Assembly: GCF_002849855.1 (NCBI RefSeq) | Contig: NZ_CP018617.1 | Span: 1,302,001 to 1,366,000, forward strand | Direction: 5' to 3' | DNA: 64,000 nucleotides | Origin: Vibrio azureus | GTDB taxonomy: Bacteria > Pseudomonadota > Gammaproteobacteria > Enterobacterales > Vibrionaceae | Shown here: positions 34,258 to 61,910 of the stretch, piece after piece | How positions within the stretch are numbered: the first letter of the stretch is position 1 | Layout: every line of letters begins with the position of its first letter | Program-made: the position numbers and the translations under genes | Notes under the pieces: generated by a model | Told to the model about the DNA's origin: nothing | Seen by the model: only the letters and a program-made list of their open reading frames with translations | Database searches by the model: none

Positions 34258-34274
34258 TGTAGTCTCGTATAGTA

Positions 34275-42878: not shown

Positions 42879-43086
42879 CGTATAAACTACCTTTTCGGCA
42901 GTCTTTTCTGGTGTTATTCCTGAGTGGTTTTTTAACATACTCTTAACTACCTATGCGGCAGTACAGTTCAATGTGACTATCATTATCAGCATCGTCATTT
43001 TCTTAGCTACCTATGCGGCAGTACAGGAAACTGCATATGATAGTGCCAATCGATCACTTTTCTTAGCTACCTATGCGGCAGTACAG
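42879..43086 (-). CRISPR. Type I-F3 array: 4 repeats, 3 spacers, atypical last repeats
   Basis: Read on the minus strand from cas6 outward. Repeats 1 (43,059-43,086) and 2 (42,999-43,026) have the I-F form beginning CTGTACTGCCGCATAGGTAG. Repeat 3 (42,939-42,966) changes the handle to TTAAGAGT. Repeat 4 (42,879-42,906) is strongly divergent (AAAGACTGCCGAAAAGGTAG). The spacers are 32 nt each: 43,027-43,058, 42,967-42,998 and 42,907-42,938. Spacer 3, flanked by the divergent repeats, matches the AraC-family gene beside the transposon. Spacers 1 and 2 have no target I recognise. Confidence 0.95.
42907..42938 (-). other. Self-targeting (attachment-site) guide spacer
   Basis: 26 of 32 bases match 61,147-61,178 in the C-terminal codons of the AraC-family gene. 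The protospacer has a 5' CC PAM on the spacer-sense strand. Mismatches are at guide positions 6, 9, 12, 13, 24 and 30. Positions 6, 12, 24 and 30 are those flipped out in type I-F R-loops, and all but 13 are codon third positions. Confidence 0.93.
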
Positions 43087-43213
43087 TGATAACTGTAGTA
43101 TCTAACTCTATGATTTCGTGTGTATAACATCACAAAACGCCAAAATACCCTTTTATTTAGTTCAAACATAACTCATTGATTTTATGATTATTAAAATACT
43201 CTTCAAAAAAGGG
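43087..43213 (-). promoter_or_regulatory. CRISPR leader region
   Basis: 127 bp between the cas6 stop and the first repeat. It is AT-rich and should contain the array leader or promoter, if the array is not simply co-transcribed with cas6. No specific box can be assigned with confidence. Confidence 0.45.
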
Positions 43214-43822
43214 TTATAAATCTAGGTCTGGCACGGTACCCCTTCTCTCCTGTGCAGTTGCTAGTCCATAACTACTAAAGTTCGCCTCAGAACGTTCATT
43301 AACCACTTGTTTTTGAGTAAATAAAAAATAGGTTTGCCCTGATGAACCACTAGAAATGGGAACGCGGTGAAAATGTTCAATAGATCGCTCTTCTCTTGCC
43401 TGAGGTATTTTTAATGCATGCCCTAACGCTGAAGCTCTAGCAATACTTCGTTTCATTCGTCGCAGCTTTGAACCTCGAAAGCTTTTGCCAATACTTTGGT
43501 TACGGACAAACCTCAGTTCACGCACTGTTTTAGGAACTTCTAGTACACCAGACAATTCAAACAGCCCGTCACTTACCATTAAAGAAAAATAGTTCTGAAA
43601 AGATAGAGCGGTAAGCATTTCTTTGCTTTCCGCTACAAAAGCTATTCTTTGTCCCACAGATGTAAATCCCCAATCTGGGAAAGTTACTCCTATTTTGTTC
43701 ATAGCTTGAGGGTTATTGATCATAAACAAGTGCATTTCGTGGATACAACGGCCAGCCAAGAGGTCATGGTCGGCACCTGCTGGCAAATATTTAACAGAGA
43801 AATAATATCTCTTTGTCATCAT
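43214..43822 (-). CDS. cas6: Cas6f (Csy4) crRNA endoribonuclease
   Basis: A 202-residue type I-F Cas6 that cuts the repeat hairpin and stays bound to the crRNA 3' end. The N-terminal RRM-like fold begins RYYFSVKYLPAGADHDLLAG, with the catalytic His in GRCIHEMH (H28, the place of His29 in Csy4). The C-terminal part holds the arginine-rich helix SIGKSFRGSKLRRMKRSIAR that grips the hairpin, followed by YFLFTQK. It overlaps the end of cas7 (ATGA). It is last gene of the tniQ-cas operon, directly before the array. Confidence 0.93.
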   Translation of the reverse strand: MMTKRYYFSVKYLPAGADHDLLAGRCIHEMHLFMINNPQAMNKIGVTFPDWGFTSVGQRIAFVAESKEMLTALSFQNYFSLMVSDGLFELSGVLEVPKTVRELRFVRNQSIGKSFRGSKLRRMKRSIARASALGHALKIPQAREERSIEHFHRVPISSGSSGQTYFLFTQKQVVNERSEANFSSYGLATAQERRGTVPDLDL

Positions 43823-44859
43823 TTATCCTTCTTTGGAGACGAGCCATTAAACAAGCCACCTTTAACTAAGATCGACATAATGAAATGCACCTCATTAGGG
43901 ATAGTTTGAGAAACCACCATATCTTCAACCCAAGCTTCTGTATTTTGTATTAAATGATAAAAATCGTTTTTAAACTTAGGATGTCGCCTAGCAATTACAT
44001 ACTCTCTATCTGCTCCATATTCATTAACCCTTAATGGTTTGTCTGCTTCTTCATGCCACCAATCATCGATTAGTTGTAATGCTGCTCCAACTTTTTGTCC
44101 ATGTAGTGCAACTGTTTGTTGCCCACTTTCAAGTTCAATTGTTGCGAACTGCTTAGTAGGCATATCATGTTCTTTGGTGTCTAAAAACTTTTGACTTGGG
44201 TAGATCTCATCCCCCCAACCAACCGTTATTTCTGCTTTCACATCGAGATAAAAATACTCAGTCGGTTCAGAGAGTGCTCTGGCAAAATAATCTGTGAGCT
44301 TTTTCAAACATTCAGACGATTTATTGTCCCATTGACCATACCAAGAAAGTCTAAGAGCATTATCAATGACGAATAAATCTGAGTCGCTAGTCCTCACTTC
44401 GATCTTTATATTTCTGGGGCCTCGATTTCGCCAAAGCCATGTACCTAGCAGAATATTTTTCGCGTAACGATTTGCCAATTCAGAGTACCCACCGAGTTCC
44501 TTGTACACACGAGCAAGCTGAGATAACTGAGTACGAACGTCATCATCATTGCAAATTTGAGGAGTAAGTGAATTAGCACTGATTCTCAGAGAGAAGGCAC
44601 AATAGATTTCATCGACACCTGGCCTCACGTAACACTCTTCGATAAATTGAGGGTTGGCATACGCCAAATCTTGAGGCGCAACGTTTTTGGGTGAAAAATT
44701 ATTGCCTTGATAAGCTTCGGAATACCCTCCCTTGGGAGCACGTAATCGGGTTCTATCTAATCCTATTGGGTTTATAGTTCCATCCGAAGATAAGGAATAG
44801 AAATAAGCTTTGCCAGTAGAAAGTGAACGCAAATAATTGAGTTGATTACAAAGCCTCAT
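43819..44859 (-). CDS. cas7: Cas7f (Csy3) backbone protein
   Basis: A 346-residue I-F Cas7 that should assemble as six copies along the guide and, in these transposons, hold TniQ at the crRNA 3' end. Recognisable features include the N-terminal LNYLRSLSTGKAYFYSL, the NRYAKNILLGTWLWRNRGPRNIKIEVRT core and the ADREYVIARRHPKFKNDFYHL thumb-like region. It starts 6 bp after cas8/5 and overlaps cas6. Length is normal. Confidence 0.93.
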   Translation of the reverse strand: MRLCNQLNYLRSLSTGKAYFYSLSSDGTINPIGLDRTRLRAPKGGYSEAYQGNNFSPKNVAPQDLAYANPQFIEECYVRPGVDEIYCAFSLRISANSLTPQICNDDDVRTQLSQLARVYKELGGYSELANRYAKNILLGTWLWRNRGPRNIKIEVRTSDSDLFVIDNALRLSWYGQWDNKSSECLKKLTDYFARALSEPTEYFYLDVKAEITVGWGDEIYPSQKFLDTKEHDMPTKQFATIELESGQQTVALHGQKVGAALQLIDDWWHEEADKPLRVNEYGADREYVIARRHPKFKNDFYHLIQNTEAWVEDMVVSQTIPNEVHFIMSILVKGGLFNGSSPKKDK

Positions 44860-44865
44860 AAGCCA

Positions 44866-46953
44866 CTAGTCCCTCAGATTTTTTATAAGAATAGTTTCGT
44901 CGGTGAGTTCTAGCGACCAAAAGGCATGATTAAAAAAGTGATCACGGCCAGCAAAACGCACATCAATTGGACTCAAACGTTTTGCGATACCGAGAGCGTT
45001 TTCTGCATAAGCATGAAACTCGGTTAATGCGTTCTCACGTGCCTTTGGGGGCTCTAGTAAATGAAAACCAATCGAAATTGGCATATTATCCATATCTTGG
45101 TTTAAAAGTTGTTCAAGATCATCAAAACAATTTGGCTGCTCATCGCTTGGCAAAACCCACCGTCCATTTGCTGGCAAACCTTTTATCCGATTAAAAAAAC
45201 TGCTCTTACTACTAAAAACCTTCAGCCATTCTATCTGTAACGACATCAGTGGTTGGTAGACTGCACCACCGGCAAAAACGAGAGGAAACGTAGCTTTTAG
45301 CTCTGACAAATAATCAGATAGTCTATTTTTGCTATCAACTCGTATCACCAAATCCATTTCTAAATCGGACTGTCGCTGTCCAAGTGTCGTAGGACGCTTA
45401 ACGTTAGAAATCGTTCTCTTTGTAGCAACAGAGTTAGGCTCAGAAAGTTTTGCTGATGATTGAATATATTCACTACGAACAAACAGCGAAAAACCCGAAA
45501 ATTCAACATGATTTTCACTGTCAATTCGTTTATTAAATTCTCTTTGGTATTGATGCACGAAGCCCCAGATAGCGGTCAGAGATGGAAAGCCAGATAAATA
45601 TGGACAACTCATCGCTACCACGTCTTGCACTCTTAATGAGGAGAGGTAAATATATTGTTCAGTATGACTTGTGTCTTCCTGCTGCTCTGTTTTACTAAGC
45701 TGAGTAAGCACCCATTTAATCTGTGCTTTAGCTGCTTGCATAAGCTTAGGGTGATAAGCAAACTGAGTGGTGAATTTGTTTTCCTGAAAAGCCAAATGCA
45801 AGCGTTGATTAAAATCGTTGACTAGTGAGGTAAACTCTAATTCAGGCTTTGCTAGAAAAGCCTGTGCCAATGAATCTTGATACTCCATTTTTTGTTGATT
45901 GGGTTCTGCATCTTGAAGATCTCTCAACTCGATAAGAGGTAACATCCATAACGCAATTTGTTTGCGCAATAGCTTAGTTTGGATACGACGAGAGGCATTT
46001 CTTTGCTTGTGCGTTTTAAGTGGCTCAAATCCAATAAGACGATTAAGAGTCTGGCATATTTTGTTATTCGTCAGCTGATAGTCGTCAAAAAATCTCGATC
46101 TCTTCTGGTGATACCTTATTAGCGTTTGCTTTGAATCAGCTTTTATACCTAGGGAGTAATCCAATATTTTTATATACCCACCCAAGCTGCCACATAAGCC
46201 ACCAATACTTGCTGGATTGGGCAAATATGAAGAAATAAAACGTAATTGGCTCTCTTTGTTGCGTGACCTGATTTCGAGCTCTCTTTGGATGGAATGACTC
46301 ACCACAGGGGTAATAGTCAAATAATGCCCTTTCCGTGGGAGTCTAATTTGCTTGCTGTATTCGCTGACCCTGTTAGGAAACGATTCTTCAGGCATCTCAA
46401 TATAAGATAGTTCCTTTATATCAGCAAGTTGCTCCACACCCAAACCAAAATCTTGGAGCAAAACCATCCAAGTATGGTTACTGCTCTTAATCATCGACAA
46501 GAGATTCACCGACTGTGACTGCCAACGAAAAGGGGTTAATAGCCAAAGAGTAAAGCGATAAACCGCAGAGTTATGTGACCAACCCCAGCTCTCCTCTAAT
46601 GCTGCACTTGATATGAATGATTCTGACGTGATAAGAGGTTTGGCTATTATTCTTGAATCTTTAACACGACAATCTGGAAACTTAAGGTTATGAGTATGAA
46701 ACCATTGAATTTCATCTAGAGAGGATTTGAGATTTTTAGAATCATTCAGATAATTCTTAGCACGTGCATCATCCAACCAATCCGCACATTTATCAGCTTG
46801 ATGGTTTGAACTGAGATTAAGTAAGATCGTTAACGCTTCTTTTTCAAACCCTTCAACACAGACATCTTCCGTATAGGGCATGAACATCTTCTTTAACGTA
46901 GCCTGTTTTAATACTTCGTCTTCGATTGCCAATAAGTCACTTAACTTCGTCAT
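44866..46953 (-). CDS. cas8: Cas8f-Cas5f fusion of I-F3 Cascade
   Basis: A 695-residue protein of the size typical of the I-F3 Cas8/Cas5 fusion, which recognises the PAM and caps the crRNA 5' handle. The N-terminal about 250 residues resemble Cas8f (YRFTLWLLTPFRWQSQSVNL). The C-terminal about 250 residues have the Cas5-like FSGFSLFVRSEYIQ and FPLVFAGGAVYQP segments. The best start is the ATG at 46,953, a few bases after the tniQ stop; a GTG three codons earlier overlaps tniQ. No nuclease domain is present and cas3 is absent, as expected for targeting without cleavage. Confidence 0.9.
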   Translation of the reverse strand: MTKLSDLLAIEDEVLKQATLKKMFMPYTEDVCVEGFEKEALTILLNLSSNHQADKCADWLDDARAKNYLNDSKNLKSSLDEIQWFHTHNLKFPDCRVKDSRIIAKPLITSESFISSAALEESWGWSHNSAVYRFTLWLLTPFRWQSQSVNLLSMIKSSNHTWMVLLQDFGLGVEQLADIKELSYIEMPEESFPNRVSEYSKQIRLPRKGHYLTITPVVSHSIQRELEIRSRNKESQLRFISSYLPNPASIGGLCGSLGGYIKILDYSLGIKADSKQTLIRYHQKRSRFFDDYQLTNNKICQTLNRLIGFEPLKTHKQRNASRRIQTKLLRKQIALWMLPLIELRDLQDAEPNQQKMEYQDSLAQAFLAKPELEFTSLVNDFNQRLHLAFQENKFTTQFAYHPKLMQAAKAQIKWVLTQLSKTEQQEDTSHTEQYIYLSSLRVQDVVAMSCPYLSGFPSLTAIWGFVHQYQREFNKRIDSENHVEFSGFSLFVRSEYIQSSAKLSEPNSVATKRTISNVKRPTTLGQRQSDLEMDLVIRVDSKNRLSDYLSELKATFPLVFAGGAVYQPLMSLQIEWLKVFSSKSSFFNRIKGLPANGRWVLPSDEQPNCFDDLEQLLNQDMDNMPISIGFHLLEPPKARENALTEFHAYAENALGIAKRLSPIDVRFAGRDHFFNHAFWSLELTDETILIKNLRD

Positions 46954-46955
46954 AA

Positions 46956-48167
46956 TTACCACTCTGGTAGATACACATTTAAGCCATCACTTTCAGAACT
47001 CATTCGGGTTAACTTTGTCTCAATAACACTTCTTAAAGTAAAGGCCGACTCGTGATTCGCTATTTTTGTATGGATTCGCGGCCTGATAGCGGCTTTAATT
47101 TCACCAAACTCATACAACCGATAGACCTCATCCGTTGTACAAGAAAGCAATGTAGAAGCTTCTAAGGGACTAAGCAGCAAATCACCGATATTTCCTTTCG
47201 CGCTTGAAGGTACTGTTGCTATAAGCCGAGTAAAGTAAGCTAACACCTGCTTAAGTACGATATTGTGGTTTAATTGACGACTGGGTAACTGGCGACAATC
47301 TTTAAGCAGAGAACCAAAAGCTTCATTGAAAAACATTTTCTTCCAATTCTTTACTCGAACAACTTCAGCCTTTTCTTTCAATCCATCAAGTTCTTGCCAC
47401 AATACTGTTGGCCAATCACTACAGTATTCGATGAATGACTCAAAACTGAGTTCATCAAACTCACCATAACGATTTACATACCAAAGTAAAAAACCATAGC
47501 GCTCAGATATCGTCATTTCTGCCTTCAGTAACCACAAGGGTTTTGAATTATTGCCTGACAACCATTGAGCGACCAATAACTCGGCTTCTGGCGCATCCTC
47601 TATAGGCGAATTTCGGAGTTCATAACCACATTCACATTGGTTAATACTCTCGGCACTTTGGTATTCAAGTCTCGACTTACACTCTGGGCAGCGATGAATC
47701 AGCTTACAGCCATGGTATTGACAAACTTGGTCAGAGATAAATTGCCACTGCTGGCGAATGTAGGGTGCTTCGTCAATACACAGAGGGCAAATAGGCGTGA
47801 AGCGTTTACGAAGAAAAGCATAAGGGTAATCAACCCCGAATCTATGTACCGCTTTGTATTGCGGAGAGAATTGAGCTTTTGAATGTGATAACGCTAAGCG
47901 CAGTACGCCAAAGTTATTGAGCTTAAATTGGTTCTCAAGATGGATAAGAACCCGCACCCGCATTTGGCTTGTCGTCTGCGCGTGATAGATATTGACTCGG
48001 TTAAGCTCTAGAGGGAAAGCACCGGCAATCGCTTCATGCTGATCCATGGTGTCAAACCAGATATCTTCGGCGAAATGAGAGAATCGCTCGTAACCTTGCT
48101 CTTGCGATAAGCGCAGTAAGAAGCTTTCGAGCGATTCATCAGAGTAGAGTTGAATGTCCGTATTCAC
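46956..48167 (-). CDS. tniQ: TniQ target-selection protein
   Basis: A 403-residue TniQ protein that joins Cascade to TnsC. The N-terminal TniQ domain begins YSDESLESFLLRLSQEQGYE. Two zinc-finger motifs follow (CPLCIDE...CQYHGCKLIHRCPECKSR...CECGYEL, about residues 118-185). The C-terminal domain is helical. It is first gene of the tniQ-cas8/5-cas7-cas6 operon. The start is GTG at 48,167. An Xre-type operator (CTTAG-N5-CTAAG) lies 18 bp upstream, so expression is probably controlled by the Xre protein at 57,162. Confidence 0.93.
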   Translation of the reverse strand: MNTDIQLYSDESLESFLLRLSQEQGYERFSHFAEDIWFDTMDQHEAIAGAFPLELNRVNIYHAQTTSQMRVRVLIHLENQFKLNNFGVLRLALSHSKAQFSPQYKAVHRFGVDYPYAFLRKRFTPICPLCIDEAPYIRQQWQFISDQVCQYHGCKLIHRCPECKSRLEYQSAESINQCECGYELRNSPIEDAPEAELLVAQWLSGNNSKPLWLLKAEMTISERYGFLLWYVNRYGEFDELSFESFIEYCSDWPTVLWQELDGLKEKAEVVRVKNWKKMFFNEAFGSLLKDCRQLPSRQLNHNIVLKQVLAYFTRLIATVPSSAKGNIGDLLLSPLEASTLLSCTTDEVYRLYEFGEIKAAIRPRIHTKIANHESAFTLRSVIETKLTRMSSESDGLNVYLPEW

Positions 48168-48184
48168 ATGTCACCACACTAAAA

Positions 48185-48199
48185 CTTAGGATTTCTAAG
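48185..48199. promoter_or_regulatory. Predicted Xre operator upstream of tniQ
   Basis: CTTAGGATTTCTAAG is an inverted repeat (CTTAG-N5-CTAAG) just before tniQ. The same pattern occurs twice ahead of the xre gene (57,084 and 57,118), and the first of those shares CTTAGGATT exactly. Confidence 0.75.
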
Positions 48200-48627: not shown

Positions 48628-50454
48628 CTATTCGTTTGTTGAACCAATAAGCTTTTCAATCTCACGAACGTAAGACTCCCAATGCTCGACAAGATCACGG
48701 GTTACTTCAAATTCAGAGCGATTATAATCGTTAGACTTAAACCAAGCTCTTGTGTGCTCAGCAATGCGATCCTTATAGCCAGGTCCCTTTCCCCACTCGT
48801 TGTATGCTTTGCCCCAGAAATGACTATCAGCTTTAATTTTATCTTCGTAGATTGAGCGCCCTTTGTTTAATGCAAGTTGAGAGATATTATTAAGGCGGAC
48901 ATCAGTTGTATTCTTAAGCTGCTTTAACAGTGAAGCGCTTGGCTTCAACTCTTCTTGAGACAACATATTGTTAATCAATATGGTCAACTCGTCGCGTAAC
49001 GGGGCAATTTTAGCCATACACTGAGCACGTGATGCAACTGCGAGCTCCTGATAGTAGTTCAGATTGTGCCAGTTACCATCACGATTCACGCTAGCACGCA
49101 CACTCGCAGCATAGGTGCCTTTGGAACAGATAGAGGTAATTAATGGCACAAAATACTCACTCAACGTTGGCGTACATGCTTTCGACTTTTTTAGCCATGG
49201 CTCCAGAGTCAGCTTTACTTGATTAATTGCAAGAGAAGCTGACTGAGATTTGATTTCATCTTCCATCTCGCAGATTGATTGTTCGATCTCTAACAAACGC
49301 TGTTCATGTGCTTTTCGCAAAGAACGTACCTTGCCCACAAGCATCTCAAAAAGCTCTGCAGAGTCATCTTGCTTTGCATCAAAAAATTCCACATCGAGAC
49401 CACGCACTGCGTACTTTTGACACAACTCGCTGTTCACTTGCTCTGCTTTAATATCACGACCATCTTCTTTATCTCCCACTGCTTCATCATAATCCATCAC
49501 ATCTTCCGCTTCACCAGCTCGATCAAGGATCAGAAGAACCGACTCATCTTTCAAGCGAGGCTTCAATCCGGCCTGAATAGCACTATCAATCATTTTTGAG
49601 CAGGTTTGATCGGGCGCATCATTGAAACGTGAGCAGAAAACACTGATAGTTTTATCACTTGTTAGACACTGGTCGAGATCCACACGATTGACTGTTTGAT
49701 CGACACCTTTCGTATCTACAAAAGTGATTGAAAAAGAGTCTTCCTTGTGACGAAGTGAAGGTACATATAGTGTAATACGTTTAGCTAAGCCCACGTTAGG
49801 GTGCGTGGCACTGTTGATCAGCTTGAATGTCTCATGAAGCCAGGCCATGTGAGCTTGACCATCAACATTTTCAAACACAGTTTTAGTGCGTTGAGCAAGG
49901 TTTGCACGTTGGATAAACTCTTCACACAGCATATCCACCGACGACAGTTGCTCGGCAAACACTTTAGCATAATCAGTAGCTGTACGTTTTCCATCCACTT
50001 TTTTACGAACGACTTTCAGTTCGAGCATATTGCGAAGTGCTCGTTCAACTTCAGCACTCAACTTAAAACCTTCTTGGTCGTTATCAACATCATCTGATTT
50101 CAGATAGAGTGCAAAGTCTGTCAGATAACTACGCACTTCTTCTTCTGTATATGGAAGCACCTCGATCTTAGCCTCTGTCGCCTTTTTGATGTGTACTTCG
50201 CAAAGTGTAGTTCGTCCTGAACCAGTGCTAAGAACAGAATTTTGCTCGTTTACCAACCCTAATAAATGACAGATAGATGTCGTTTTACCAGCTCCTACAT
50301 TTCCGATAAAGGCAATATGATGCTCTTTATCCGCAAGGTATGATTCACTGAGCTTGTACATTTCTTTGTGGTTTTCTAGTTGGGAGCGCAAAGGGCTTTG
50401 AGTTGACATACATGCCAGCAAATCTTCGATCGTCTTTGAGAATTCAGTTTTCAT
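48628..50454 (-). CDS. P-loop GTPase, dynamin-like, putative defence protein
   Basis: A 608-residue protein. G1/Walker A is IAFIGNVGAGKTTSICHLLG (about 47-66), G3 is TFVDTKGVDQT, and LLILDRAGEAEDVMDYDE follows in the place of the G4 region. The C-terminal about 230 residues are helical with coiled-coil-like stretches (LLEIEQSICEMEDEIKSQ), an arrangement found in dynamin-like and other large GTPases. It sits among restriction genes in transposon cargo, where anti-phage GTPases are common, so a defence role is inferred. Specific family not recognised. Confidence 0.55.
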   Translation of the reverse strand: MKTEFSKTIEDLLACMSTQSPLRSQLENHKEMYKLSESYLADKEHHIAFIGNVGAGKTTSICHLLGLVNEQNSVLSTGSGRTTLCEVHIKKATEAKIEVLPYTEEEVRSYLTDFALYLKSDDVDNDQEGFKLSAEVERALRNMLELKVVRKKVDGKRTATDYAKVFAEQLSSVDMLCEEFIQRANLAQRTKTVFENVDGQAHMAWLHETFKLINSATHPNVGLAKRITLYVPSLRHKEDSFSITFVDTKGVDQTVNRVDLDQCLTSDKTISVFCSRFNDAPDQTCSKMIDSAIQAGLKPRLKDESVLLILDRAGEAEDVMDYDEAVGDKEDGRDIKAEQVNSELCQKYAVRGLDVEFFDAKQDDSAELFEMLVGKVRSLRKAHEQRLLEIEQSICEMEDEIKSQSASLAINQVKLTLEPWLKKSKACTPTLSEYFVPLITSICSKGTYAASVRASVNRDGNWHNLNYYQELAVASRAQCMAKIAPLRDELTILINNMLSQEELKPSASLLKQLKNTTDVRLNNISQLALNKGRSIYEDKIKADSHFWGKAYNEWGKGPGYKDRIAEHTRAWFKSNDYNRSEFEVTRDLVEHWESYVREIEKLIGSTNE

Positions 50455-51034: not shown

Positions 51035-51036
51035 GG

Positions 51037-52818: not shown

Positions 52819-52820
52819 GA

Positions 52821-54299
52821 TCACGCCTCACTGCCAGCTGATGATTTCAGCGCATCACCCAAGATGCTCTTTAACTGGTTGCGTAATTCTGCGATCTCTT
52901 GTTGCTGCTGTTGGAAGCTTGCCAATAGCTCTTGGGGATCATGGCTTATAACTTCATCTTGGTGCGGATTTTTAATGTCTAAGTTGAAGTTACGCTCGAT
53001 GATCTCTTCAATCGAGACTTTCCACGCATGTTCATTTTCAACGCGTGAAGCAAAACCGTCTGCTTCATTGCCCCACCAATCAATTTCTTGCTGGAACTCT
53101 TCAAACTTCATCGGCTTGGTCTTGCTGTAGTTCTTCACGCCCTCTGGGTATGGGTGCTCATAGAACCACACATCTCTAGTTGGCTTGCCTTTGGTGAAGA
53201 ACAGAATATTGGTTTTAATGCCTGTGTATGGGTTAAATACCCCATTTGGCAAACGCACGATGGTATGTAGGTTACATTCTTCTGTCAGCATTTTTTTGAT
53301 TTTGGTTTTAACGCCTTCACCAAACAATGTACCATCTGGCAATACTACGCCTGCTCGACCGTTGTTTTCATCAAGCACTTCAATAATAAGCTGTAAGAAC
53401 AGATCGGCCGTTTCACGAGTTTGCATCTCGGCAGGGAAGTTTTTCTCAATGCCATCTTCTTCCGTACCACCAAATGGCGGGTTGGTCGCAATCACCTTGA
53501 TGTTGGTGTCCCAACTTGAAAGCGGCTTGTTGAGCGTATTGCCGTGTTTAATTTGTACTGGCACTTCAATACCGTGCAGCATCATATTGGTGATACACAA
53601 TAGATGCGGAAGCTGCTTTTTCTCAACACCGTGAATTTGTTTCTGTAGTGTTTGGTGGTCCGCCGCTGTCTGCACGTAATTGTTTTTGACGTGCTCGAAT
53701 GAACAAGCAAGGAAACCGCCTGTCCCTGTAGCAGGGTCCATGATAGATTCGCCAAGCTTTGGATCGAGTCGGTCAACGATAAAACGTGTTACGGCACGAG
53801 GCGTGTAGAACTCGCCTGCGTTACCAGCACTTTGCAAGTCTTTCAAAATTTGCTCGTAGATATCACCAAACAAATGACGTTCGTTAGAGTCGGTAAAGTC
53901 AATCTCATTAAGTTTGTTGATGACTTGACGTAACAACGTACCGTTCTTCATGTAGTTGAACGCATCACTAAAAGCTTCTTTGACCAAAAAACCACGCGGG
54001 TTTTTATCCACTGGCGCTATCATATTCTTTAAACGAAAGAAGAGATCATCGTTGATAAATTCAAGCAGTTTGTCACCCGTGATGCCTTCAGCATCTGCAG
54101 CCCAATTGCGCCATAAATATTTTTCATCAATCGGCGTTGTATAGTCGTCCATTTCCAGTTCTAACTCTTCTTCCTGAGCATCGAATACTTTCAAGAATAA
54201 CAACCATGACATTTGGCCAAGGCGCTGAGCATCACCATCGACACCTGCATCTTTACGCATGATGTCTTGAATAGATTTAATTACGGAACTGATAGACAT
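52821..54299 (-). CDS. hsdM: Type I modification methyltransferase HsdM
   Basis: A 492-residue adenine N6-methyltransferase. The N-terminal HsdM_N domain begins SVIKSIQDIMRKDAGVDGDAQ. SAM motif I is MDPATGTGGF and catalytic motif IV is IATNPPFGG. The C-terminal helix (LASFQQQQQEIAELRNQL) binds HsdS. It belongs to the operon with hsdS, overlapping it, and follows hsdR after a 176-bp gap. It methylates the host DNA to protect it. Confidence 0.95.
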   Translation of the reverse strand: MSISSVIKSIQDIMRKDAGVDGDAQRLGQMSWLLFLKVFDAQEEELELEMDDYTTPIDEKYLWRNWAADAEGITGDKLLEFINDDLFFRLKNMIAPVDKNPRGFLVKEAFSDAFNYMKNGTLLRQVINKLNEIDFTDSNERHLFGDIYEQILKDLQSAGNAGEFYTPRAVTRFIVDRLDPKLGESIMDPATGTGGFLACSFEHVKNNYVQTAADHQTLQKQIHGVEKKQLPHLLCITNMMLHGIEVPVQIKHGNTLNKPLSSWDTNIKVIATNPPFGGTEEDGIEKNFPAEMQTRETADLFLQLIIEVLDENNGRAGVVLPDGTLFGEGVKTKIKKMLTEECNLHTIVRLPNGVFNPYTGIKTNILFFTKGKPTRDVWFYEHPYPEGVKNYSKTKPMKFEEFQQEIDWWGNEADGFASRVENEHAWKVSIEEIIERNFNLDIKNPHQDEVISHDPQELLASFQQQQQEIAELRNQLKSILGDALKSSAGSEA

Positions 54300-54475: not shown

Positions 54476-56932
54476 TTATGCGGATTGATCTAATTGAGGC
54501 TGATAAATAGCGGCTTCTAACTCATTAACGGCCTCTAAATATTGCGGTTTCCCACCAAAGCCTTTTTTGATGATTTCTATCGGTCGGCCCATTGCATCGA
54601 ATGGCTTTACTTTTAGAACGTGAATGTTTTCAATCTCTTGAACGCCTTCGTCAGCATATTTTTCAAGTAGATTATTCAATACCTGCTGTGCTGTTTCACC
54701 ATACTTAGTAAAGTAATTACGCTTTTTAACGTTATCAGCGCGCTCTTTTCGAGTTAATGGCGGTTGGTCATATACAACGTGACATATCATATCAAATGGG
54801 TCCATCTCTTTGCCCACTTCATGTTCCAGTGCTTCCCAAATAACACCCAGTTCAGCAAGTTCATCAATGATGGCTTGCTTACGATCTGCATCATTCCAAC
54901 GCTTAGTAAAATCGTCTAACGAGGAAAATTGCGTTGCCATGGCCTTTCGTGTGTAGTCTCTAAATGATTCTGTCACCAGTTTGCCGTCACTGTCATAATA
55001 CTGCACACGCTCGGCAACTTTGGTTACAGGCACTCCCGACACATAGAACTTTCTTATTTCTTCTTGAATCGGCTCCTCTACTCCTTCAGGGGAATCACCT
55101 CCATTCGTTGGTGTATAAGGAGGTGTCGTTGGTTCTGAGATTGTGGTCGGGTCGATGTCATCATCAAACGGACAACCATCAATGCCTTCACCCTCCATTC
55201 CATCAACGATATCATCAAGCTCACCTTGATCTTCAAAGTCAGAAGGTTTGGTGACTTTCACTCGCTCTGGCATGCCATCAAAACGTTCATCGGCAAAAAG
55301 CTCCGTTGCTTTTTTAAAGTCGAGAATAGAAAACCACAATTTATCAAATCGTTCGTCAATGCGCGTACCTCGTCCAATGATCTGCTTAAATTTAGTCATG
55401 GATTTAATCGATGAATCAAGCACAACTAATTTGCAGGTCTTAGCATCCACTCCGGTCGTCATCAGTTCAGATGTCGTCGCAATCACGGGGTACGGTTTTT
55501 TAGGGTTAATGAAGTTATCAAGCTGAGCCTTACCGATTTCATCATCTCCGGTAATTTTCATTACGTACTTTTCATTTTTCGCCATTTGATCGGGGTTGCA
55601 ATTAGCGATAGCTCGACGCATACGCTCCGCATGATCAATATCGTTACAAAAGACGATGGTTTTTGCCATTGGATCAGTGCGCTTTAAATAGTTCGTGATG
55701 GTTTGAGCAACTAATTCGGTGCGCTCATCAATCACCATTGTGCGATCGAAGTCTTTCTGGTTGTAGATTCGGTCTGTAATCGTTTCACCGTGTTTATCTT
55801 TCTGCCCTTTGGTTGGCCGCCATCCCTGTAAATCAACGTCTAAATCGACACGAATCACTTTATAAGGCGCAAGGAAGCCATCTTCAATACCTTGCTTTAA
55901 TGAATAGGTATAGACAGGCTCACCAAAATATTCGATGTTAGAAACTTCATCGGTTTCTTTTGGTGTTGCGGTCAAGCCGATTTGAGTTGCAGAACTGAAA
56001 TACTCTAAAATTTCACGCCATGCACTATCTTCCGAAGCACTTCCCCGGTGGCACTCATCGACGACAATTAAATCAAAGAAATCTGGGCTTACGTTTTTAA
56101 AAATTTTCTTGTGTTCTTCCTGACCTGTTATAGCTTGATATAAACCAAGGTGGATTTCAAAAGCCGGGTCAATATTACGTTTCCCGATCTTAGTCATTGC
56201 CGTCTCGAAAGGCTGAAAATCATTATTCTTCGTTTGATCCACTAAGATATTACGGTCAGCCAAAAACAAAATGCGTTTTTTAGCACCTGATTTCCATAAA
56301 CGCCAAATGATTTGAAATGCCGTATAGGTTTTTCCTGTTCCTGTCGCCATCACTAATAAGACTCGGTTTTGCCCTTCAGATACCGCTTCAATCGTTTTAT
56401 TTATGGCATTAAGTTGATAATAACGCGGTGACTTACCACTCCCATCATCATAATAATCTTGATTGATCAGAGGGATCTGCTCATCGGAATACCCCTTCCA
56501 TTGACAGTACTTTTCCCAAAGAGCTTGGGGAGATGGAAAGTCTTCGAGTCTGATCTCAGTTTCCAGCTGACTGGAGTTGGTCTTATCATGAAATATAAAT
56601 CCATCCCCATTACTGGCAAAAACAAACGGAACATCTAGAAGAGACGCATAATCCAAGCCTTGCTGCATTCCTTTGCCAATTTCATGCTTATTCGCTTTTG
56701 CCTCGACAACGGCAAGTGGCATGCTGGGCTTGTGATATAGGACAATATCAGCAGATTTTACTTTTTTACGGGCAGCAACTTGGCCTCGAACAACCACTTT
56801 ACCGTCACGTAATTTAACTTCTTGACGAATCTGCTCCATTTCATTCCAACCATTGCTTTTGATAGCAGGCAGAATAAATTTTGAAATGATATCGGCTTCA
56901 GAAAGATGAGACTTAGAGAACTTTTCAACCAT
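54476..56932 (-). CDS. hsdR: Type I restriction subunit HsdR (EcoEI-like)
   Basis: An 818-residue motor and nuclease subunit. The N-terminal HSDR_N nuclease domain includes [25 protein letters not shown] with the D...ExK nuclease core (about 50-85). The helicase part follows: motif [16 protein letters not shown], motif [12 protein letters not shown], motif III LTATPKE and motif [10 protein letters not shown]. The C-terminal EcoEI_R-like domain binds the modification core. The length fits the EcoEI-like group. It is the first gene of the restriction operon. Confidence 0.94.
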
Positions 56933-57083
56933 ACGGCTATGATTCCAATACTTAATTGTGGCAGATTATACAACAAAGTTTATATGGGTAAAGAATAAGT
57001 GAGTGACGAGATTACAAACGTCGGAAGGGTTGAATAGATTGCTTTGAATCTGCTTACCTCGTATAACTAACCCAAGCAGAAAA

Positions 57084-57132
57084 CTTAGGATTGCTAAGTA
57101 TACAAAAATCAGTAAAACTTAGACAATCTAAG
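57084..57132. promoter_or_regulatory. Two predicted Xre operators upstream of xre
   Basis: CTTAGGATTGCTAAG (57,084-57,098) and CTTAGACAATCTAAG (57,118-57,132) are inverted repeats of the form CTTAG-N5-CTAAG, 34 bp apart start to start. They lie in the intergenic region shared with the divergent hsdR gene, so binding could control both xre and hsdR. Confidence 0.75.
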
Positions 57133-57161
57133 TCAACCAAAGGCTGAATAGAAATGTATCA

Positions 57162-57470
57162 GTGCAAAAAGACAACCCCATCCCAGCGAGGCTCAAAGCT
57201 GCGCGTAAAAAAGCAAAGATCACCCAAAGAGATTTGGGGGTGAAGATAGGCATGGAACCAAGTTCAGCCAGTGGGCGTATGAATCATTACGAGAAAGGTC
57301 GGCATGTACCTGATATTGGTACACTTGAACGTATGGCTGAAGAATTAGGTGTACCGCTAAACTACTTTTTCTGTAGGAGCGAATTAAGCGCTGAGTTAGC
57401 GTGTGTAATTGATAAGTTGAGTGATGAAGAGAAGGCGGCATTGTTGGAAAAGCTGTGCAAGCAAATCTAG
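57162..57470 (+). CDS. Xre-family transcriptional regulator
   Basis: A 102-residue HTH_3/Cro-C1 repressor. The helix-turn-helix spans KKAKITQRDLGVKIGMEPSS through MNHYEKGRHVPDIGTLERMA (about 14-58), and the C-terminal helix is SDEEKAALLEKLCKQ. The start is GTG at 57,162. Operators precede its own gene and tniQ, so it should repress itself and the tniQ-cas operon. In some I-F3 elements an Xre regulator is known to control targeting genes, in line with this. It is convergent with tnsC, whose end it overlaps by 4 bp. Confidence 0.88.
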   Translation: MQKDNPIPARLKAARKKAKITQRDLGVKIGMEPSSASGRMNHYEKGRHVPDIGTLERMAEELGVPLNYFFCRSELSAELACVIDKLSDEEKAALLEKLCKQI

Positions 57471-58450
57471 CCTAGTAACTGCTCGATGGTTAGTTCATTA
57501 AAAATTTGCTGGACGAATTTTAGTTCACCATTGGCGGCATCAACAACGTATTCCTCATAAGATTCTATTTGTTTTATTACCAGCTCATCGGCGTTAATAG
57601 AAAAAGGATTAGCCTCATCAACACCATAAATCGCCTCGTATCCAAGTCTAAAATCATCGAGTCGAATTGTCTGCCTCCCCAAGTGTAGAGAAGACTCTAT
57701 TGCTGAAGCAATGAGTTCTTTCATATTGCTAAGAATTCCACGACTTGCTGCTAATAATCTAACAGCTGAATCAACGTCTGTTAGGTCGACTTCAAAAGGA
57801 ATTGGGACTGAGGCCTGCATCGCTTCTAACAAATCTAGATAGCGGTCTATCGAGCTATCATCTGTAATTTTAACGTAGGGCAATTCTCTCTTTACCATAA
57901 TCCTACGTTGCCATTGAGAGTCTTCTAGGATCAACTTTGCACTGGGTATTCCTACAAAAACAATAGGCAGTTTACAGTCATCGCTAATCATTTTCAGGCG
58001 GTCTCTGATATCTTGCCTTTCTTTGTGAGATGTGCACTCAAACAACTCTTGGCATTCTTCAATAATAAGAAGTTTTAAGTTTGCCTTTTTAAGACAACCA
58101 ATAACCCTGTCCATCAAGCCGATATCAGATGGTTTAGCTCTACTATTACGATAAGCATTGAGGTTTTTAGCCATCCAAAGTAAGGTTTCATGAAGTGTTG
58201 GTCTAACTCTAGTAAGTAGAACTTCGCTATCGGATAAATTGTTGTCTATGTAGTGTTTAATTGAGGCTGATTTACCCGATCCTGTCCCACCAGTTAGCAG
58301 CATAGATGGGACAAAAGACCCAAAATTTCGACGCCTAACTAACCAATCAAGCCCCGCAAATACTTTTTCTACTTCTGGATAAATTGTAAAAGAGTCATGA
58401 TAATCAGACAAAATTAAATCAATAGGATAATTAAGCGCTGAATTAGGCAT
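57467..58450 (-). CDS. tnsC: TnsC AAA+ ATPase
   Basis: A 327-residue AAA+ regulator that links the TniQ-Cascade complex to the TnsAB transposase. It has Walker A (LLTGGTGSGKSASIKHYI) and Walker B (LKLLIIEECQELFE), with arginine-finger-type residues in GIPSAKLILEDSQWQRR. The best start is the ATG at 58,450, which overlaps the tnsB stop as TAATG and follows AGGAG; an in-frame start 11 codons upstream lies inside tnsB. Length matches I-F3 TnsC. Confidence 0.94.
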   Translation of the reverse strand: MPNSALNYPIDLILSDYHDSFTIYPEVEKVFAGLDWLVRRRNFGSFVPSMLLTGGTGSGKSASIKHYIDNNLSDSEVLLTRVRPTLHETLLWMAKNLNAYRNSRAKPSDIGLMDRVIGCLKKANLKLLIIEECQELFECTSHKERQDIRDRLKMISDDCKLPIVFVGIPSAKLILEDSQWQRRIMVKRELPYVKITDDSSIDRYLDLLEAMQASVPIPFEVDLTDVDSAVRLLAASRGILSNMKELIASAIESSLHLGRQTIRLDDFRLGYEAIYGVDEANPFSINADELVIKQIESYEEYVVDAANGELKFVQQIFNELTIEQLLG

Positions 58451-60357
58451 TAACTGCTCCTCTCTTTTCTTCGTTGATTCCACTTAGAGCGAAAATCATC
58501 AATCGGTTCCACTTTCGTTAAACTTGATTCTTGTTCGTTGACCATTGAAATATCATTCACTGATGTTCTGCTAGAGCTATCACTGTTCAAACCTGTTAAC
58601 TTTGCAGCTTTTTTAGTCCCCTTTGCTTTTCGTTTTCTCTCTGGCAATGACATGGCTTTTAGGTTCGCTTGTTCGCTCTGAATGCGCTCATGTAAAGCTA
58701 TTCTCGCCTTTGCAAGAGATAAAGCATTGATCTCACCTTTTATATACTCTCGATGTATTTTAACTAATCGTTGGTGTACACAAAGGCTCAATTTATCCGT
58801 ATAGCCATCAGCGTTTTTACTTGGCACTTCAATGTAAATTGACAGTTCTTCAAGAAAAACAAAGATCGTAGAGAGATCATCAGGGTCAATTTTAATTTTC
58901 TTTTTTTTAGATTCTTTGGTCTGGGGGTATTGCTTCCTGTATTGTTCCAAAGCTACTGAATCATACTCTAAATGCTTGTACTTTATACCTTTACTCGTTA
59001 AAGTCCCAATATGAAGGAGTCCCATAGTAATACTAAAAGACTTTTCCTGATCCGCTGATAGCTGTTTTGTTGGTAGACATTCAAAACTGTTCTTCCAAGA
59101 CAGGTTTGGAATACGAGTGTGTCTAGAATCTGCTTTAGCATTGTGAACATCTACAATCCATCGGTGCAATTCTTCTACAAATACACTGAAGCGCATCACT
59201 GCATCTTTATCTGGTTTATAATCTTCTTTTTCGAGAACGTTAGAAAATGTCTTACCAGGAACCCAGCCAACAATACCTTGAATAATTTCTCCAAATTTAC
59301 GCTCAATAAAAGGTTTTAACCAAGGTTTTTTTACTCTATTAAAAGTAATATTGATACCACATTCAGTGCAAGCATCATCTAAGCTTTTAGACCAAAACTC
59401 AGGGCCGTTATCTACAACTAAATTTTCTATCTTCCCATTACATAACCATTCATTTTCAAATTTGATAGGCAAGTTAGATATATAATCTTTATTCTTTATA
59501 GAGTGAATAATAGCTTTTGAGACAGATACATAACTTGGAGCATTAAAGCCTAAATGAAAGCCTATGATACATCCGCTAAAAACATCAACTAATAGTGTTA
59601 AATAAGCTCTGCCTAAGGGGATGAGTAGATCATCATGGAGTAATATTAAATCTAATGGAGTATGGTCAATTTCGACTCGCTCAAGGATTCGAGTGGGCAT
59701 TTTAACGGATTGATAATAGTGATAAAGCTTATCAGCATAATATTTGCCATGCCTAGCAAGTACGATGTTATAAGGTTGTTCTTTCTTTATTCTTTTCTTA
59801 AATGTTTGGTATGAGACGATAGGAACTTGCCCAGAAATCACTTGCTCATTTGCTATCGTTATCTCGTCACAATAAAATTGATATGCAGCGCTTATTGATG
59901 GTCTAACACTATCAAGAAATCTTTCTAACGCTCTTTCATAAAAGGCTTCATCGCCAGTCTTTCTGGCAACACGATTACCTTTTAAATAATTCTTATCAAC
60001 CAAACTTATGAGATTTCCATCACTTTTAGTAAAATTTTTTTGCCACCTGATCAATGTTTTATAACTAGGTTTAGGTATAGAAACATTGGAACTATATTTA
60101 TCAATCAAAGGGTCGAGATTTCTGGGAGTCCAGCCGCCTCTAAGTTCATTTTCAATTAAACAAAGTAATTTGTACCGTTCTAGCGCCTTTTCTTTTTGCT
60201 CAGGCGGGAAGGAAGCTAAATCTCGTTCATATGTCTGAGTCTTAGCTAATGAATTGTATTGGAGTTGAGTTCTTATAGTTTCTGGATGAGAAAGAAACTC
60301 TTGCTCAATGGCTTCAGAGTAGGCAGGGTCGAATTCATCTTTTATTCGTCGACTCAT
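58450..60357 (-). CDS. tnsB: TnsB DDE transposase
   Basis: A 635-residue retroviral-integrase-type transposase that binds the CCATAARRTGTCC end sites and joins the 3' ends. Catalytic residues are D231 (VEIDHTPLD), D316 (VVDNGPEFW) and E352 (KPFIERKFGEI). An N-terminal HTH region (about 1-130) binds DNA and a C-terminal tail (about 560-635, rich in Lys and Ser) probably contacts TnsC. It is separate from TnsA, not fused, with adjacent stop and start. Confidence 0.95.
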   Translation of the reverse strand: MSRRIKDEFDPAYSEAIEQEFLSHPETIRTQLQYNSLAKTQTYERDLASFPPEQKEKALERYKLLCLIENELRGGWTPRNLDPLIDKYSSNVSIPKPSYKTLIRWQKNFTKSDGNLISLVDKNYLKGNRVARKTGDEAFYERALERFLDSVRPSISAAYQFYCDEITIANEQVISGQVPIVSYQTFKKRIKKEQPYNIVLARHGKYYADKLYHYYQSVKMPTRILERVEIDHTPLDLILLHDDLLIPLGRAYLTLLVDVFSGCIIGFHLGFNAPSYVSVSKAIIHSIKNKDYISNLPIKFENEWLCNGKIENLVVDNGPEFWSKSLDDACTECGINITFNRVKKPWLKPFIERKFGEIIQGIVGWVPGKTFSNVLEKEDYKPDKDAVMRFSVFVEELHRWIVDVHNAKADSRHTRIPNLSWKNSFECLPTKQLSADQEKSFSITMGLLHIGTLTSKGIKYKHLEYDSVALEQYRKQYPQTKESKKKKIKIDPDDLSTIFVFLEELSIYIEVPSKNADGYTDKLSLCVHQRLVKIHREYIKGEINALSLAKARIALHERIQSEQANLKAMSLPERKRKAKGTKKAAKLTGLNSDSSSRTSVNDISMVNEQESSLTKVEPIDDFRSKWNQRRKERSS

Positions 60358-60987
60358 TTAGTATACCGAAACTGTACTATTTTCGTTTAACAATTCTAGA
60401 TCAAGGTCTATTTTAGCTCTTCCTACAGCAATCAAACGAAGAACTGATGCAAAAACTTCTCCTAAAGTAAAACCACTAATTCTTCGTGCCAACACAGAAA
60501 TTTTAACAACTTCTGATAAAAGCAACTCTGCAAAAACGATATCGATCAAAGAATCATCTGCAATGCACCCACTGTAACGATGCACCATTTGACTATTTTT
60601 TAAGAAGTAACCCGCTCGGATCTGTCTATCTGTCACTAATATCAAGTTAAAGCCAAGCAGTTCTGCTGCTCGCTTTCTAGACTGAAACTTTAGTTTAAAT
60701 TCTTTACTCAATGTTTTTGAATAGGGTTTGATCTCCATGAAGCTGTGGCAACCATCATCATATACAACAAAGAAATCAGGGGTGTAAGGCAGCTGCTTTC
60801 CATCAAAGTCATAGAAAAAGCCTCTAGGCTGCGATTCAAAACTCACCACATTAGGGTCGTACTCAAAGTGATAGCAACAGTCTCTTTCAAGGCTTCCCTC
60901 ACACATAATCGAGCCTTGGTTCTTTGCACTAGCAAACTTAAAGATATTTTTGTTCGGCGAAGGTTTTCGAAGATTACGAATATACAT
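60358..60987 (-). CDS. tnsA: TnsA endonuclease
   Basis: A 209-residue Tn7-type nuclease that cuts the 5' ends so that the element moves by cut-and-paste. The restriction-like core has the EGSLERD helix, YTPDFFVVYDDG with the catalytic Asp, and FMEIKPYSK with the Lys (E...D...xxK arrangement). The C-terminal domain (about 110-209) contacts TnsC. The ATG at 60,987 (MYIRNLRKPS) follows GGACTCTT and is preferred over a start 12 codons upstream. It lies 108 bp from the transposon end. Confidence 0.93.
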   Translation of the reverse strand: MYIRNLRKPSPNKNIFKFASAKNQGSIMCEGSLERDCCYHFEYDPNVVSFESQPRGFFYDFDGKQLPYTPDFFVVYDDGCHSFMEIKPYSKTLSKEFKLKFQSRKRAAELLGFNLILVTDRQIRAGYFLKNSQMVHRYSGCIADDSLIDIVFAELLLSEVVKISVLARRISGFTLGEVFASVLRLIAVGRAKIDLDLELLNENSTVSVY

Positions 60988-61028
60988 AAGAGTCCTATTG
61001 TTGTAATAAAACAACCAAATCAAGCTTA

Positions 61029-61095
61029 GGACATTTTAAGGGTTTTAAAAGGACACTTTATGGTTTTTTTTGGACACTTTATGGTTTCAGCGACA
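61029..61095 (-). repeat. Target-proximal transposon end with TnsB-type sites
   Basis: Sites inverted relative to the other end lie at 61,072-61,084 and 61,051-61,063 (both GGACACTTTATGG), with a weaker one at 61,029-61,041 (GGACATTTTAAGG), spaced about 21 bp. The extreme end is TTTCAGCGACA. The weakest site is close to the tnsA promoter, so TnsB binding may limit tns expression. Confidence 0.88.
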
Positions 61096-61100
61096 AACGC
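61096..61100. repeat. Target-site duplication (AACGC), right copy
   Basis: Matches 35,691-35,695. It lies 21 bp after the AraC-gene stop codon, so the insertion leaves that gene intact. Confidence 0.95.
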
Positions 61101-61121
61101 AGAGCACCCCACCATACAACC

Positions 61122-61910
61122 CTAAAGTAGACGGTTCTTATACTGTTCAGGTGTCATTCCTGAGTATTTCTTAAACATGGCAATAAATGGGCTTGCTTGG
61201 TTATAACCTAATGTTAATGCGACTTCTTTTACTGGTCGCCCTTTGCGTAATAACTCCATGGAATGTAAATAGCGCACGCGCAGTCGCCATTCTGTGAAGC
61301 TCATCCCGAGCTCACTTTGACAATGTCGTGCAAGGGTTCGCTCTGTGGTGTGCACCTTTTCTGCCCACACCGCCAGACTGATCTCATCGGTAGGCGACTC
61401 CTCGACGGCTTTGAGAATCGGTTTCAAGTATTTATTGTCTGTTGTCGGCAAAAAGTGATGTTCAACATCTTGAGTAGCCAGTTGGTCGAGCAAGACCTGT
61501 ACCAAGCGCTTGTCTTCTCGGCTGGTAGCAATGTTTATGTCGCGTTGACGAAAGTCTTCCACAATCGCAGACACAATCGGGGTAACTTTGATCAAACTGG
61601 TCTGGCTGGGGAAGGATTCTGTCAACTTAGGGGCAATATTGAGCGAACAATATTCGAGGGGTTTGCGATTATAGCTGGTATGGCGAACCCCAGCAGGTAC
61701 CCAAATCGCCAAGTGAGGTGGTGCTAAAAATCGTGTATCTTCGGCTTCCATTTCCAAGATTCCGCCACTGATTAATTGCAATTGCCCCCAAGTATGGCTG
61801 TGGATACGCGTTTCCGTATTCGATAGGAAGGCCTCAAAATTCATAAATACATCCGATGGAGCCTGCTCGATCGATAAAGAAGGATGAAGATTCCGCTGAT
61901 TCTTTTTCAA
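61122..61910 (-). CDS. AraC-family transcriptional regulator (transposon target gene)
   Basis: A 262-residue regulator with an N-terminal cupin sensor (HSHTWGQLQLISGGILEMEA ... APPHLAIWVPAGVRHTSY, about 38-85) and a C-terminal double helix-turn-helix (WAEKVHTTERTLARHCQSEL ... ALTLGYNQASPFIAMFKKYS, then GMTPEQYKN). It is divergent from an EamA-type exporter, which it probably regulates. Its last helix codons (61,147-61,178) are the protospacer of CRISPR spacer 3. The transposon has inserted just behind the stop codon, a position that does not harm the gene. Confidence 0.9.
   Translation of the reverse strand: MKKNQRNLHPSLSIEQAPSDVFMNFEAFLSNTETRIHSHTWGQLQLISGGILEMEAEDTRFLAPPHLAIWVPAGVRHTSYNRKPLEYCSLNIAPKLTESFPSQTSLIKVTPIVSAIVEDFRQRDINIATSREDKRLVQVLLDQLATQDVEHHFLPTTDNKYLKPILKAVEESPTDEISLAVWAEKVHTTERTLARHCQSELGMSFTEWRLRVRYLHSMELLRKGRPVKEVALTLGYNQASPFIAMFKKYSGMTPEQYKNRLL
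61147..61178 (-). other. Protospacer of the self-targeting guide, PAM at 61,179-61,180
   Basis: On the minus strand this reads codons for MFKKYSGMTP within the AraC C-terminus, preceded by CC. The PAM-distal end is 46 bp from the target duplication, in the 46-51 bp range expected for I-F transposon insertion. Confidence 0.93.

Follow-up and report, generated by a model that had tools for sequence, protein, structure and literature searches.

A type I-F3 CRISPR-associated transposon of Vibrio azureus with a predicted homing guide for an AraC-family regulator gene

Homing of type I-F3 transposons associated with clustered regularly interspaced short palindromic repeats (CRISPR), which are Tn7-like, is concentrated on few places in the chromosome. 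Four loci take 94% of the homing events, suggesting limited acquisition of new chromosomal guides (PMC12774636), and other attachment (att) sites therefore exist. Among the known I-F3 sites are yciA, guaC, ffs, rsmJ, parE, Shewanella cobO and others; the Shewanella att genes described in the text of PMC12452197 include ParM/StbA-type genes besides cobO. The lifestyle outlined in PMC11406308 combines one spacer for plasmids with one for the chromosomal site, and a layout with the homing guide between diverged repeats is described there and in PMC12774636. Insertion distances are given as 47-51 bp (PMC12452197, PMC10188703), while in the survey of PMC8649781 most predicted ends lie 50-60 bp from the protospacer. 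In this study, a 64,000-nucleotide stretch of the V. azureus genome (contig NZ_CP018617.1, positions 1,302,001 to 1,366,000; in the following the window) was analysed. It harbors a 25.4 kb transposon (35696-61095) directly behind a gene encoding an AraC-family regulator, which adjoins a gene for an EamA-family transporter. We give a probability of roughly 0.9 to the reading that this is an I-F3 element whose last spacer serves specifically to guide it to the AraC gene, and that this site has been used repeatedly in Vibrio. The ends, the array and the target are the following.

35691 to 35695 (no strand): target-site duplication AACGC, left copy, 5 bp
35696 to 35721 (plus strand): left transposon end, starting TGTCGCTGAAACCATAAGATGTCC..., terminal inverted repeat
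42879 to 42906 (minus strand): terminal repeat, strongly diverged, hairpin kept
42907 to 42938 (minus strand): spacer 3, the 32-nucleotide putative homing guide for the AraC gene
42939 to 42966 (minus strand): third repeat, three changes compared to the typical repeat
42967 to 42998 (minus strand): spacer 2, matching Vibrio plasmids
42999 to 43026 (minus strand): second typical repeat, identical to the first
43027 to 43058 (minus strand): spacer 1, no convincing target
43059 to 43086 (minus strand): typical repeat, the first after cas6
61070 to 61095 (minus strand): right transposon end (tnsA side), inverted repeat
61096 to 61100 (no strand): target-site duplication AACGC, right copy, 5 bp
61122 to 61910 (minus strand): AraC-family regulator gene (Pfam HTH_18), the attachment-site gene
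61147 to 61178 (minus strand): protospacer of spacer 3, 26/32, inside the codons for MFKKYSGMTPE
61179 to 61180 (minus strand): CC protospacer-adjacent motif (PAM)

The transposon is bounded by inverted TGTCGCTGAAACCATAA ends (TGT...ACA) with AACGC on either side. More TnsB-site-like repeats are located at 35761 (weak) and 35784 in the left end and at 61029 (weak), 61051 and 61072 in the right end. Open reading frames are present for tnsA, tnsB, tnsC, an I-F-type TniQ, a cas8/cas5 fusion, cas7, cas6 and xre. A second TniQ was not found in the element, and neither cas1 nor cas3 was detected in a Pfam scan of all open reading frames (ORFs) of at least 90 amino acids between the ends, minus those inside another ORF on the opposite strand; hsdR of the cargo matches Cas3 models weakly in PADLOC, as a shared helicase. 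With the TGT...ACA ends, the repeated TnsB-type sites and the 5-bp duplication, the element is classified from its sequence as a type I-F3 CRISPR-associated (Tn7-like) transposon with predicted RNA-guided activity.

Spacer 3 is the last unit of the array, between the third repeat and the strongly diverged last one, so that the att guide is terminal and has diverged repeats on its flanks, as in atypical guides; a hairpin is predicted in all four repeats. It matches 61147-61178 (both on the minus strand) at 26 of 32 positions, with mismatches at guide positions 6, 9, 12, 13, 24 and 30 and the CC PAM in place. The protospacer is separated by 46 bases from the duplication and by 51 bp from the transposon end, of which the tnsA side is nearest, and this offset falls within the published 47-51 bp. 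Among 1000 shuffled spacers, the highest score in the whole window was 24/32. The chance of at least 26/32 is approximately 1.2e-10 per site, corresponding to about 1e-3 expected matches across the 4.83-Mb genome, while that of a 26/32 match at any of the 7 allowed offsets is approximately 9e-10. A search of the own genome for the degenerate PAM and target with up to 3 mismatches returned only the protospacer and the spacer itself. An initial annotation of the window had reported the match, its six mismatches and the 46 bp between the PAM-distal end and the AACGC duplication, all of which were reproduced. Its conclusion that the resident spacer 3 explains the insertion is supported by the match and the offset as well as by three findings in other genomes detailed below (an AraC-guided element in Vibrio sp. 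CAU 1672, a decayed copy in genome G275 and a guide in V. penaeicida).

A TniQ search in 329 genomes of the family gave hits in 77. Downstream of tniQ, 64 loci were examined: besides Moritella, the 63 genomes other than the own one in which a hit reached approximately 35% identity contributed a single locus each; 13 of the 77 genomes with only distant TniQ hits (approximately 24-30% identity) and second distant hits elsewhere were left out. The terminal guides comprise 56 for ffs (55 assigned by a permissive text pattern in the vicinity of any stretch resembling a repeat, plus L092 by eye), two for AraC and two other spacers, while four arrays (L078, L095, L114 and L132) were unreadable. The two other terminal spacers (L129 and L134) match neither ffs nor AraC. 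A seemingly new terminal guide in P. aquae (L091) was rejected and counted as ffs, because the element sits at ffs and its last unit contains an ffs-like stretch. Together with the window, AraC guides are found in three elements, the others being those of Vibrio sp. CAU 1672 and V. penaeicida; AraC-matching spacers in I-F3 arrays, which the initial annotation had proposed to look for, thus exist in two more elements. An exact-pattern search for AraC guides in IMG/VR gave no hit, and in PLSDB only V. penaeicida was found.

In CAU 1672 (L160 and L166), a tnsA end is located behind an AraC gene 89% identical to that of the window and with an EamA-type neighbour. The AraC-guided element of V. penaeicida sits on the 285-kb plasmid pIFO15640, not at AraC, and its guide matches three other Vibrio AraC sites at 29/32. 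No such end was found in the 168 bases behind the chromosomal AraC gene of V. penaeicida (68% identical), and within the 41 kb surrounding the insertion on the plasmid, the best match of its spacers is a poor 20/32. We read the plasmid copy as the probable transfer half of the cycle. Near its tnsA end (L170, approximately 13400-13650), repeat-like remnants (CTGCCGAATAGGCAGCTAAG...) were seen beside an end-like TGTGGCTGGAACCATAAGATGACA. Related elements with the same spacer at unrelated sites would, according to the initial annotation, refute the explanation of the insertion by spacer 3; this applies in part, to the plasmid-borne element of V. penaeicida.

The AraC motif is present in 166 of the 329 family genomes. 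From some of these 166 genomes, the examined stretches yielded 142 distinct AraC sites, a few of which may be paralogues; sites left out are, for example, those of G296, G300, G301, G305, G313, G319-G321 and G323. I-F3-type ends were accepted at four of the 142 sites, at distances of 51 bp in the window, 51 bp in G275, 37 bp in CAU 1672 and 34 bp in G292. G275 (L303, 1-6200) contains a decayed copy. Its right end remains, as does part of tnsA, with 97% identity over 109 residues, and pieces of the cargo match the PAAR/VasX gene of the window (the longest, of 562 bp, at 85%). In the 6.2 kb up to the contig end, neither the array nor any of tnsB, tnsC, tniQ and the cas genes gave a match. G292 retains a decayed end and tnsA fragments only. 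The window guide matches the G275 site at 27/32. At most two mismatches outside the flipped-out (every-sixth) guide positions are present at five of the 142 sites, three of which (window, G275 and G292) hold I-F3 ends.

Several other ends near AraC genes were not accepted. In G309 (L300) and V. mytili G019 (L304), TGTGGCTGG... is located at 38 and 36 bp, and both were rejected as I-F3 since neither has a tnsA match; by eye, the sequence after it in G309 looks like an ORF presumably encoding an IS3-type transposase. The insertion sequence-like ends of the same two loci (TGTGGCTGGAA...) lie 38 and 36 bp behind the AraC protospacer, and the intergenic spot behind AraC may thus also be struck by other elements. 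A TGTCGCTG at 86 bp in G019 has no TnsB-type repeats and was not counted, nor was TGTGGCTG at 83 bp in L233 counted as an I-F3 end.

The 5' handle and the hairpin of the following repeat are 37 nucleotides apart in the window guide and 27 in that of CAU 1672. For ffs guides this spacing is 23-25 nucleotides in 26 of 38 distinct guides, those of the nearer relatives; no hairpin was recognised in the other 12, and L099, L130, L131 and L135-L138 (more distant elements) look full-length. From the PAM to the transposon end, 83 bp were measured in the window and 69 bp in CAU 1672, i.e. 14 bp nearer. At six ffs sites, the putative end lies at 68-75 bp as read by eye, with four of them (L073, L150, L151 and L152), whose elements have short guides, all at 68 bp. 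When 32-nucleotide strings were compared at ten tnsA loci, the best four scored 18-21/32 with the first approximately 20 bases matching, owing to the shortness of those guides; scores at the remaining six were at chance level, and the positions were not those of the ffs site. Long and short guides would agree with a fixed step of approximately 47-51 bp from the actual guide end. For CAU 1672, the array is located approximately 1.2 kb from the contig start (at about 1166 of L160), and only the tnsA end of the element was located.

A number of observations weigh against a homing function of spacer 3 and repeated use of the site. At 138 of the 142 AraC sites there is no accepted I-F3-type end, including the three that match the V. 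penaeicida guide at 29/32. The AraC genes of the window, G275 and G292 are similar, and shared ancestry could explain part of the coincidence of guide match and end. The G292 end at 34 bp is off the position predicted for a 32-nucleotide guide, no array was seen at G292, and the CAU 1672 spacer, taken as 32 nucleotides, matches its site at only 21/32. The ends at 34 bp (G292) and 37 bp (CAU 1672) would require short guides, and the array of CAU 1672 indeed encodes one (27 nucleotides from handle to hairpin). The six mismatches, including one in the second seed segment (position 9) and one at position 13, might reduce efficiency. Finally, an empty site with continuous flanks and a single AACGC, which the initial annotation had suggested as a check, was not found in 60 relatives: among 61 genomes searched (the own genome and the 60 relatives, 36 of them of the same genus), the left flank (34643-35695) matched the own genome only, and it has no match in 9.5 kb of G275. 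G030 was considered as an empty site and rejected, as it matches the window only in AraC and EamA; by eye, the gene behind its AraC resembles that of an M14 peptidase.

The ends at AraC in the window, G275 and G292 could be one old insertion that was inherited, an explanation we regard as less likely but not remote. It would be in line with the AraC flanks of G275 and the window (87% identical), the 51-bp offset in both, and the tnsA and cargo of the window's kind retained in G275. However, the tnsA remnant of G275 is 98% identical to the window at the DNA level, compared to 87% for the host flank, and the short stretch from the stop codon to the end differs much between the two (by eye). The duplication in the window is perfect, the offset in G292 is different, and CAU 1672 has distinct tnsABC (61-73%), a distinct guide and a distinct offset. 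Repeated homing to the AraC site is thus preferred.

Four of the six mismatches (6, 12, 24 and 30) occupy flipped-out positions (P 0.002), with 9 and 13 outside, and five of six are at codon third positions, both as previously annotated. In this reading register all five flipped positions coincide with third positions, and because of this the two effects are inseparable from the target alone; the excess at flipped positions is weak once the five third-position mismatches are given (P 0.10). The initial annotation had interpreted the pattern as a guide tolerating synonymous drift of the gene. The third-position bias stands, but only the changes at 9 and 30 are synonymous. The guide would encode MLKNHSGITP where the gene encodes MFKKYSGMTP, so that the non-synonymous changes from gene to guide are F to L, K to N and M to I, plus Y to H at position 13. 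Furthermore, the guide bases at 6 (A), 12 (C) and 13 are found in 0, 0 and 1 of the 142 AraC sites, respectively; since A at 6 and C at 12, both flipped positions, are absent from all of them, the guide itself has drifted, besides the gene.

Such drift raises the alternative of a degenerate former homing guide, which explains the past insertion and is now stopped from functioning in its host by the six mismatches. The rare guide bases would fit this, as would the lower match to the own site (26/32) than to that of G275 (27/32). We nevertheless consider it rather improbable, since four of the mismatches are at flipped positions and the PAM-distal positions 25-29 and 31-32 are all paired. According to the text of PMC12774636, mismatches at 25-29 abolished and at 31-32 impaired transposition, those in 7-11 severely impaired it, those in 13-17 and 19-23 had minimal effect, and atypical guides commonly mismatch their att sites. 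The guide has one mismatch in 7-11 (position 9), and the one at position 13 belongs to a segment of minimal effect. That the element reached the site by a protein selector (TnsD) or by chance, with the spacer match arising later or being a coincidental likeness to a widespread motif, is very improbable: a TnsD-type protein guides some I-F3 elements to parE (PMC11406308) and the AraC motif is common (166/329), but only one TniQ was found in the element, PAM, strand, terminal array position and offset are all right together (approximately 9e-10 over the allowed offsets), and a second AraC-guided element (CAU 1672) is located behind the same gene.

For the preferred reading, homing by spacer 3, the following mechanism is proposed. 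CRISPR RNA (crRNA) would be made from spacer 3 and drive transposition, as we infer from the arrangement of array and target. TniQ-Cascade with this crRNA would bind the last coding bases of the AraC gene beside the CC PAM, with mismatches accepted at every sixth position, where the bases are flipped out. The element would then be inserted by TnsC, TnsA and TnsB at a distance of approximately 50 bp from the PAM-distal end. This point is 21-26 bp beyond the stop codon, and landing there would keep the AraC gene whole. In the window, the AraC gene is intact, as the insertion lies past its stop codon.

The att gene, AraC/HTH_18 beside EamA, is none of the known I-F3 sites listed above, as the initial annotation had assumed. 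No literature report of an AraC I-F3 att site was found, and AraC does not occur in the main texts of PMC11406308, PMC12452197, PMC10293859, PMC8649781 and PMC6360697; att-site tables of earlier surveys may list one. AraC is therefore presented as a putative new attachment site, not a new mechanism, with transposition predicted. A conserved landing place behind a regulator gene would thus be available in about half of the Vibrionaceae genomes searched (166/329 with the motif). Since separate lineages of elements use it, the site illustrates how a homing address can change, and guides of different length for a single target can be compared there in a natural setting.

The element is a mosaic, and its genes differ in their kinship. 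Compared to the nearest ffs elements (TniQ 86-89%), Xre is 91-96% and Cas8 63-65% identical, whereas TnsA, TnsB and TnsC reach 27-36% where measurable (L073, L081, L107 and L109). At most, Xre is 96% (over 74 amino acids) and TniQ 89% identical to ffs elements, and the element may belong to the I-F3b subgroup, which is characterised by an RtbC-type Xre regulator and kinship with ffs/rsmJ elements. The nearest relatives of the window TnsABC are those of CAU 1672, P. aquae and G184, the last two of which carry ffs guides. In quick trees, as were calculated for Cas8, Cas7, Cas6, tnsB and tnsC, Cas8 and Cas7 are sister to those of the AraC-guided V. penaeicida element (SH-like approximate likelihood ratio test, SH-aLRT, 99 and 100), while the sister relation to this element is unclear for Cas6. 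AraC guides cluster neither in the TniQ tree nor in the tnsC tree. Three changes of the AraC label are needed in the TniQ tree and two in the Cas8 and Cas7 trees, and AraC homing has therefore not been inherited together with a single entire element. It was probably passed on by exchange of the cas-array block. A further and tentative proposal, at a little less than even odds, is that AraC-EamA serves I-F3 elements of Vibrio as an established alternative site for homing, that they gain access to it by exchanging a cas8-cas7-(cas6)-array block among each other, and that the homing address is a mobile module. The window element would combine xre and TniQ of the ffs-homing clade, Cas8 and Cas7 akin to those of the V. 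penaeicida element, and tnsABC from a third lineage. If true, 32- versus approximately 20-22-nucleotide guides for the same target, with a landing shift of 14 bp, would be a natural test of a ruler starting at the PAM-distal guide end.

The other spacers of the array were compared to plasmids and phages. Spacer 1 has no convincing target among either. Spacer 2 has no target in phages. Its plasmid matches are in V. campbellii and V. parahaemolyticus (30/31 aligned bases in four records); in pLMB99 it matches 30/32 (mismatches at 6 and 32, CC PAM) within an SprT-like gene. A plasmid-directed spacer 2 and a chromosome-directed spacer 3 would be fitting for the two-pathway lifestyle. The genes of the element and the gene following AraC are listed below.

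36129 to 37157 (minus strand): cargo gene, no Pfam family
37158 to 41759 (minus strand): cargo, large protein with PAAR-like and VasX N-terminal domains (type VI secretion effector-like)
41779 to 42222 (minus strand): cargo gene adjoining the PAAR/VasX gene, no Pfam family
43214 to 43822 (minus strand): cas6 (Csy4)
43819 to 44859 (minus strand): cas7 (Csy3)
44866 to 46962 (minus strand): cas8/cas5 fusion
46956 to 48167 (minus strand): tniQ, I-F type, the sole TniQ found in the element
48628 to 50454 (minus strand): cargo, weak dynamin-like match
51037 to 52824 (minus strand): cargo, type I restriction specificity subunit (hsdS)
52821 to 54299 (minus strand): cargo, type I methyltransferase (hsdM)
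54476 to 56932 (minus strand): cargo, type I restriction endonuclease (hsdR)
57162 to 57470 (plus strand): Xre-type helix-turn-helix regulator
57467 to 58483 (minus strand): tnsC
58450 to 60357 (minus strand): tnsB transposase
60358 to 61023 (minus strand): tnsA endonuclease
61986 to 62903 (plus strand): EamA-family transporter, divergent from the adjoining AraC gene

Directly left of the element (32413-35200), a gene encoding an Imm11-like protein of 185 amino acids is present three times in tandem with a step of 1115 bp; two ORFs of 130 amino acids sit between the copies, and the last copy is the one included in a Pfam scan. Further left, the region 744-10029 encodes three large leucine-rich-repeat proteins of the BspA type (362, 500 and 705 amino acids) with 22-residue repeats of high regularity.

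Compared to known systems, the element resembles the ffs-guided type I-F3b elements in its tniQ (TniQ identity up to 89%), cas8/cas5, cas7 and cas6 and in the homing guide being last in the array. Its TniQ is closer to the 7u5d chain (E 1e-90) than to the 6lnb chain (E 1e-40), which we take to be the A. salmonicida element and Tn6677 of V. cholerae, respectively. Unlike in the ffs-guided I-F3b elements, the guide targets a protein-coding gene (AraC); it has the full 32 nucleotides, compared to the shorter guides recognised for 26 of 38 ffs arrays. Furthermore, its TnsC is 26-33% identical to that of the ffs elements measured, the exceptions being L091, L119, L122 and L125 (54-72%). With the I-F3a elements at yciA and guaC it shares a guide that reads a protein-coding gene and tolerates third-position variation (PMC11406308, PMC12774636), while the att gene is different. 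In CAU 1672, the guide is shorter (approximately 22 nucleotides) and the end lies at 37 bp, and the V. penaeicida element is plasmid-borne, with tnsA 36% and tnsC 34% identical to the window. The terminal guides of the window, CAU 1672 and V. penaeicida pIFO15640 share their starting base within the AraC motif.

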